DNA of 64,000 nucleotides from Desulfobulbaceae bacterium (GTDB taxonomy: Bacteria > Desulfobacterota > Desulfobulbia > Desulfobulbales > Desulfocapsaceae). Location: assembly GCA_024640625.1 (NCBI GenBank), contig JAHEER010000012.1, forward strand, positions 1 through 64,000, in the 5' to 3' direction. This document shows positions 15,658 to 58,245 of this stretch, in pieces (the first letter of the stretch is position 1; every line of letters starts with the position of its first letter). Position numbers and translations under genes: made by a program. Below the pieces are notes generated by a model. It was not told the DNA's origin. It worked only from the letters and a program-made list of their open reading frames with translations, and made no database searches.

Positions 15658-15748
15658 GGGGACACAATACCTATCCTGTCCCTTTGATTCTAAGGTTAGA
15701 TAATTAAACACATTTTCCGGGTTGGGACAGGACAGGTATTGTGTCCCC
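15658..15748. repeat. REP-like inverted repeat, copy 1
   Basis: Two 25-base arms (15658-15682 and 15724-15748) are inverted copies differing at one position, with a 41-bp AT-rich spacer. The outer sequence begins GGGGACACAATACCTATC. The same outer sequence recurs in copy 2 at 57220-57271. The element lies between convergent hypB and hemC, where it could end transcription in both directions. Confidence 0.85.
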
Positions 15749-57219: not shown

Positions 57220-57271
57220 GGGGACACAATACTTATCATGTCCCGCGGGACATGATAAGTATTGTGTCCCC
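57220..57271. repeat. REP-like perfect 52-bp palindrome, copy 2
   Basis: Each 26-base half is the exact reverse complement of the other; the outer sequence begins GGGGACACAATACTTATC and the centre is CCCGCGGG. It shares the outer arm with copy 1 at 15658-15748. It lies inside the dapA-dapB gap, 17 bp before the dapB start. Confidence 0.93.
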
Positions 57272-57363
57272 AAAATAATTCAGAAACGAGTCATTTTGTT
57301 GCAAGATCGAGGCGCAGGATAAAATTTCGAGCGCAACGAAGATATTGAACAAAAGTGCCGTTT

Positions 57364-58245
57364 CTAGAGCATTCCCAGCCTGCTCATCTCCTCAACCAAC
57401 GCCTGGGTAGTCTGATCGTCGGCCGGAGTCATCGGCAGCCGCGGACTCCCGTCCTGAATGCGGCCGAGCATCTCCAGTGCTTTTTTGGCCGGGCCGGGGC
57501 TGGGCGATTTGAACATCAGCTTCATCATGGTAAAGAGCCGGTAATGTTCTTCATTGGCCTTGCCCAGATCGCCGCTCAGGGCAGCTTCCATCATTCTCGC
57601 CATGCCGGCCGGATCGACGTTGGAGATAACCGAGATCACCCCCTTGCCGCCAATCAGGGCGGTGGGCATCGAAGTGAAGTCGTCGCCGGAGAGGAGGATA
57701 AAGTCGTCGGGGCAGAAGCGAATCACGTCGCTTATCTGCTCGAGACTGCCGCAGGCCTCTTTTATGCCGATGATGTTATCAATATGTGCCAGCCTGGCCA
57801 CCGTTTCAGGCAGAATATGAATCACTGTCCTGCCTGGCACGTTATAGAGTATCACGGGGATATCCACTGCCTCGGCGATGGCTTTAAAATGGAGGTACAA
57901 GCCTTCCTGACCTGGCTTGTTGTAATACGGGGCCACCGACAGCACCGCGTCGGCGCCGCTGTCTTTGGCACTCTCGGTGAGTTCGATCGCCTCGAGGGTG
58001 TTATTGGCGCCCGTGCCGGCCACCACGGGAACCCTGCCGTTTACCGTTTTGACCGTCAGGTCGATTACCCGTTTGTGCTCATCGAAAGCAAGGGTAGCCG
58101 ATTCTCCTGTCGTACCGCAGGGAACGATACCGTGAATACCGTTCTCGATTTGAAATTCGATCAGGTCGACCAACCCCTTCTCATCCAGCTTGCCATCGAT
58201 AAATGGAGTTACCAGGGCAGTTAACGCGCCGTGAAAGCGTTCCAT
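57364..58245 (-). CDS. dapA: 4-hydroxy-tetrahydrodipicolinate synthase
   Basis: DapA condenses pyruvate with aspartate semialdehyde, the first step of the diaminopimelate/lysine branch. The 293 residues show the GTTGESATL motif (44-52), Tyr134 (VILYNVPGRT) and the Schiff-base Lys162 (IGIKEACG). A strong AGGAGG precedes the ATG. It follows dapF after 100 bp and is separated from dapB by 161 bp holding the palindrome. Confidence 0.97.
   Translation of the reverse strand: MERFHGALTALVTPFIDGKLDEKGLVDLIEFQIENGIHGIVPCGTTGESATLAFDEHKRVIDLTVKTVNGRVPVVAGTGANNTLEAIELTESAKDSGADAVLSVAPYYNKPGQEGLYLHFKAIAEAVDIPVILYNVPGRTVIHILPETVARLAHIDNIIGIKEACGSLEQISDVIRFCPDDFILLSGDDFTSMPTALIGGKGVISVISNVDPAGMARMMEAALSGDLGKANEEHYRLFTMMKLMFKSPSPGPAKKALEMLGRIQDGSPRLPMTPADDQTTQALVEEMSRLGML

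Follow-up and report, generated by a model that had tools for sequence, protein, structure and literature searches.

A resident RAYT is generally regarded as necessary for REP and REPIN populations. Among the described repeats, those closest to the elements studied here are the ends of RAYT-like "TIRYT" transposases, which share the motif GGGGWSAS and of which some are dispersed as dimers (Di Nocera 2013, PMC3733652). Desulfo- species are not mentioned in the main text of that study, which also describes a bias toward convergent genes as usual for REPs generally. Hairpin-directed template switching is reported to give coordinated change of two arms (PMC8794818).

Here, we analyzed a window, meaning the whole stretch of 64,000 nucleotides under study, from the MAG of a sulfur-cycling Desulfofustis bacterium in the Desulfobulbaceae (G000; 4.29 Mb, 231 contigs, 92% complete). 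The two palindromes of this window probably belong to a REP/REPIN-like, more exactly TIRYT-"TIR"-type, non-autonomous family that arose from the ends of a RAYT-type Y1/HUH element, an explanation to which, taken whole, we give a probability of about 0.78. The family would be a further member of an already known repeat type, not a new kind, and Desulfofustis with its relatives offers a worked example of the TIRYT branch, which has received little study.

Two palindromic elements and their family in the genome

The exact palindrome reported in the original prediction at 57220–57271 and the related element at 15658–15748 were both recovered, as the top two inverted repeats of the window. The first (copy 2, a 52-bp doublet without strand) consists of two 26-nt arms, 100% complementary and 0 nt apart, at 57220–57245 on the plus strand (GGGGACAC AATACTTATC ATGTCCCG) and 57246–57271, inverted, on the minus strand. 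It occupies the gap between dapA and dapB, two tandem minus-strand genes, and lies directly upstream of the ribosome-binding site of dapB. The second (copy 1, 91 bp, likewise without strand) has 25-nt arms at 15658–15682 on the plus strand (GGGGACACAATACCTATCCTGTCCC) and 15724–15748, inverted, on the minus strand, which are 96% complementary (one mismatch) and separated by a 41-nt spacer (15683–15723) unrelated to the spacers of other copies. Both copies were rightly placed in gene gaps, but the context of copy 1 had to be corrected: it fills the gap between the convergent hypB and hemC, whose stop codons lie at distances of 8 and 2 nt. An 18-nt arm pattern, allowing up to 3 mismatches, matched the window 4 times where 0.11 matches were expected, and none of 100 window shuffles reached that number. 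No intrinsic terminator (stem, then T-run) was called at copy 1 or copy 2, and Rfam gave no match above the gathering score in the window.

A second dispersed repeat, at 57281–57366, directly adjoins the copy 2 palindrome in the dapA-dapB gap. It ends in AGAAACG...CGTTTCT, measures ~95 bp here and ~135 bp in the related genome G064, and has at least 17 family matches in G000, 34 in G064, 41 in G067, and 4 in G065; a further copy stands by a doublet at G000:C135:424–509.

Applied to all of G000, the same arm search gave 96 matches, compared with 1 for a reversed-pattern control, which bears out the suspected family of short palindromic REP/REPIN-like elements. The two copies announced as independent were real, but their number had been understated: merging the matches left ~32 doublets of inverted units, together with 16 solos (the latter counted with at most 2 mismatches), for a total of ~50 copies, nearly all of them intergenic, with solo units common. 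The consensus unit, GGGGACAC-AATACCYATC-GTGTCCC, also written GGGGACACAATACCYATCGTGTCCC, is a small hairpin whose complementary stems enclose a loop of 10 nt, and a doublet is one long hairpin; the RNA folds of the elements are very stable (−44 to −50 kcal/mol). Spacers of the G000 doublets measure 0–14, 29–48, or 62–63 nt and have no evident likeness between copies, and the doublet flanks gave no signal of a target duplication at lengths of 2–12 bp. The 62-nt spacer of one doublet (L038, contig C190, 7878–7991) contains a further small palindrome, GGGGACACAATTTTTTATTGTGTCCCC, which has a similar but decayed counterpart in a G067 element (L152).

With gene contexts assigned by a simple codon-model gene finder, 15 of the 29 classifiable G000 doublets lie in convergent gaps, a larger share than among the gaps of the window (5 of 30; p = 0.006), as do 13 of the 23 doublets of G067. 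The elements often stand 0–20 nt from stop codons, and by eye several adjoin an ordinary intrinsic terminator (sites L042, L052, and L047).

Related genera carry RAYT genes with these ends

The sequence GGGGACACAATAC was present in 53 of the 258 genomes of the order, the reversed pattern giving isolated matches only. Several of these sites have RAYT (Y1/HUH) genes nearby, which in the relatives start 57–66 nt past this end. In G210, the gene is flanked on both sides by inverted GGGGACACAATACCTATTT; in G222 and G085, it is preceded by GGGGACACAATAC at ~60 nt (upstream end). In a small sample chosen by a simple filter, each of the four intact RAYTs found to bear GVRSM(D/E)IF as an N-terminal signature had GGGGACAC ends, and the ends of the remaining RAYTs were mostly GGGGACAG or GGGGTCAG. 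The RAYT proteins of the relatives score above the Pfam cut-off for Y1_Tnp; their best NCBIfam model, REP-associated tyrosine transposase (REP_Tyr_transpos), scored below its own cut-off, and a PDB search with one RAYT returned an unrelated repeat match only. Plain palindromic GGGGACACAATAC doublets are present in G065, G227, and other genomes. In G227, which represents a different genus within the order, near-perfect palindromic doublets (GGGGACACAATACCTATTT...) form a separate set (L215–L219), and GGGGACAG ends were seen instead at the single intact RAYT inspected in that genome.

The proposed link to RAYT-type Y1 genes thus stands through related genera, but its other half, a cognate gene elsewhere in the same genome, does not. 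No cognate RAYT with the element ends was found in G000, G064, or G067, which are all MAGs (90–92% complete, 230–260 contigs) on which these statements of absence rest. The sole clear Y1_Tnp gene of G000, on contig C35, has no element ends in its readable flank, and the contig stops 28 nt before the start codon. Since the tetranucleotide deviation of C35 (0.288, the highest among the fetched contigs, compared with at most 0.205 for pieces of the window) sets it apart in composition, this contig may have entered the MAG as a binning contaminant or been imported recently. C35 also holds, with its RAYT (L032, 301–362 and 2471–3157), a different palindrome, GGGGTCAGTGTAAAAAC...GTTTTTACACTGACCCC, that likewise fits GGGGWSAS.

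No arm was found beside the Y1 genes detected in G064, G065, G067, and four other family members. A search of G000, G064, and G067 with the G222 protein found no such RAYT beyond those on C35 and C68. The same protein detected broken RAYT remnants in G065:C176, with a tail resembling the GVRSM(D/E)IF subclass; this pseudogene (L278, ~1501–1966) is nearest to the subclass with GGGGACACAATAC ends and lies downstream of an apparent ABC permease gene. Weak Y1 matches in G067:C197 and G000:C144 were judged false (a multi-spanning membrane protein and the antisense of a PlsX-like gene), and a Y1 fragment at the end of G067:C16 lacked matching ends. Because the genomes are incomplete MAGs, loss of the cognate RAYT from the carrying lineages is likely rather than proven.

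Age of the insertions and coordinated change of the arms

Within the genus (five genomes), the load of G067 (23 doublets) is similar to that of G000, G064 has fewer and decayed copies, and no full unit was found in G065 or G066; the rest of the family has isolated arm matches at most. A scan of 84,980 species, from which the window's own genome was possibly omitted, found the full-length unit in Desulfofustis MAGs only, and an exact-unit scan of viral contigs gave no match.

At least 15 of the 23 G067 doublets have flanks orthologous (roughly 74–88% identity) to those of G000 elements or remnants. The hypB-hemC gap of G067 holds an orthologous doublet with the same arm spacing, its spacer strongly diverged from that of copy 1, and that of G066 holds none. 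In the dapA-dapB gap, a single solo unit, decayed, occupies the corresponding position in G064, and G066 has none; other G064 sites have eroded versions of the element. Single sites also switch between solo and doublet states (doublet at L148, solo at L044; solo at L154, doublet at L062). Because the copies occupy orthologous sites in sister species, the insertions are older than the split of the element-bearing Desulfofustis species. For the present genomes, the active mobilization implied at first finds no support: with most copies shared at orthologous sites, they were not mobilized recently. They have the look of a REPIN/TIR-type family that is old, passed on vertically, probably orphaned, and not active. 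At L161 (G067:C240, 1631–2134), a partial tandem duplication of a doublet is accompanied by another doublet 240 bp off; the extra doublet is missing from the orthologous G000 site and is a candidate younger insertion.

The two arms of an element change together. Mismatches between the arms of one element numbered 54 and 16, far below the respective 124 and 55 for arms of different elements, a result reached in 0 of 2000 permutations. Across 11 orthologous doublets, the loop positions had 11 two-arm changes vs 3 one-arm changes, with ~0.4 two-arm changes expected under independence, and at one site (L033_6115) the G067 loop is 2 nt shorter than that of G000 in both arms. Stem positions had only one-arm or unmatched changes between orthologs, and unit positions 4–9 and 20–24 are mostly near-invariant over loci and species. 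Long spacers drift while the arms change in step; the ~70% identity of orthologous spacers in a cheap-gap alignment is about equal to that of shuffled pairs, and no identity figure is claimed for them.

Such changes fit hairpin-directed template switching or strong selection for pairing, and both would give similar patterns. A tentative and less likely reading, taken whole, is that a transposase-less REPIN-type population has been kept perfectly palindromic over long evolutionary times by replication, with no need for transposition; template switching at the hairpin would copy changes, even small indels, from arm to arm and could make an abutting doublet out of a solo unit. The likeness to hairpin maintenance by template switching and quasipalindrome correction (PMC8794818, PMC7202029) is that the arms of an inverted repeat change together in one event. 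Those systems concern RNA genes and mutational hotspots, whereas here the process is proposed, not proven, for a dispersed repeat population.

Selection alone would account for the conservation and the coordinated arm changes, and a mobile origin would be incidental, if the elements persisted chiefly as RNA hairpins where transcripts end, serving as bidirectional terminators or stabilizers of mRNA 3′ ends. The enrichment in convergent gaps, as a rule no more than ~20 nt from a stop codon, the stable folds, and the preservation of pairing by in-step changes would all agree with this. However, neither window copy was called as a terminator, several copies already have an ordinary one beside them, copy 2 sits in the dapB leader, and a convergent bias is general among REPs (PMC3733652). 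Pairing alone also leaves the common GGGGACACAATAC letters at unrelated loci unexplained, and we regard this explanation as unlikely. It is very improbable that the dapA-dapB palindrome is a fixed regulatory site of dapB, an operator or attenuator: though it lies immediately upstream of the ribosome-binding site and would fold as a strong leader hairpin, ~50 copies stand beside unrelated genes, and the comparison of the same gap in relatives, with its decayed solo unit in G064 and nothing in G066, does not show a fixed site. The idea is largely refuted, and a local side effect on dapB is possible.

Dispersed binding sites for a chromosome-organizing or other DNA-binding protein would account for the near-invariance of most positions in 4–9 and 20–24 across loci and species. 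Yet the variable loop letters change in both arms, which a site read in the duplex would not need, the end motif is common to RAYT-flanking repeats, and decay is tolerated in G064; we consider such sites improbable. As little credence as to a dapB operator is given to a MITE of a DDE-type transposon, moved with target duplication. Inverted repeats, many copies, and intergenic positions are what such an element would have, but target duplication of 2–12 bp is absent, the only transposase genes found with these ends are RAYTs, and solo units are common.

Origin of the family and comparison with known repeats

The preferred reading, descent from the ends of a RAYT-type element, would begin with the GGGGACACAATAC terminus of a Y1/HUH element found in genera of the same order, from which the unit GGGGACACAATACCYATCGTGTCCC would derive. 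The units would then have multiplied in a common ancestor of three or more Desulfofustis species, mainly as inverted doublets, and would have landed chiefly right after stop codons, in many cases in convergent gaps. A RAYT/TIRYT of this subclass presumably produced the copies via single-stranded intermediates, and its gene was probably later lost or died in these lineages, as suggested by the lack of a cognate gene in three MAGs and the dead one in G065. The arms may since have stayed complementary through hairpin-directed template switching during replication, and their pairing may also be kept by selection for a transcript-end or DNA hairpin. The inner GTGTCCC half, which makes the unit a hairpin, is missing from the RAYT-flanking ends of the relatives; hence, we infer the step in the descent that added it.

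Three species share orthologous copies, a RAYT source is recognizable in sister genera, and, as far as the MAGs tell, no transposase is left. The decaying population of G064 can also be set beside the pristine ones of G000 and G067, which makes hairpin maintenance directly testable via arms, spacers, and flanks.

The family resembles the REPINs (Bertels and Rainey 2011, PMC3116915) in its two inverted palindromic units, diverse spacer, and long hairpin, as well as in its compensatory changes, intergenic positions, and singlets. In contrast to REPINs, its spacers measure 0–14 nt as well as 29–65 nt, and it comprises ~50 copies. No conserved GTAG/GTGG was detected in the flanks or in the unit, which starts GGGGACAC; it is thus a REPIN-like population lacking two canonical REP features, the GT[AG]G foot and a cognate RAYT found in the carrying genomes. 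It is similar to the CGTC-tagged REPs (PMC3733652), intergenic palindromes with a 3′-end and convergent bias and no cognate transposase in the genome, but differs in lacking the CGTC tag and in the existence of same-end RAYT genes in related genera.

The closest likeness is to the TIRs of the TIRYT or "TIRtron" elements (PMC3733652), with which the family has in common the GGGGWSAS ends (GGGGACAC), the link to a RAYT-like Y1 gene, and the occurrence as singles and dimers; some of these TIRs are also self-complementary, as is the Desulfofustis unit. Unlike them, it forms a population at the level of the genus, and no cognate transposase was found in the three genomes that carry it. As in TIRs, the same ends flank RAYT-like Y1 genes, here in the relatives (both sides in G210, upstream in G222 and G085). 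The family thus agrees with TIRs in each feature examined, the cutting and joining of single-stranded ends by the transposase being putative. The element works in the manner of the TIR/REP ends that bound RAYT(TIRYT)-type elements, and most likely arose from such ends.
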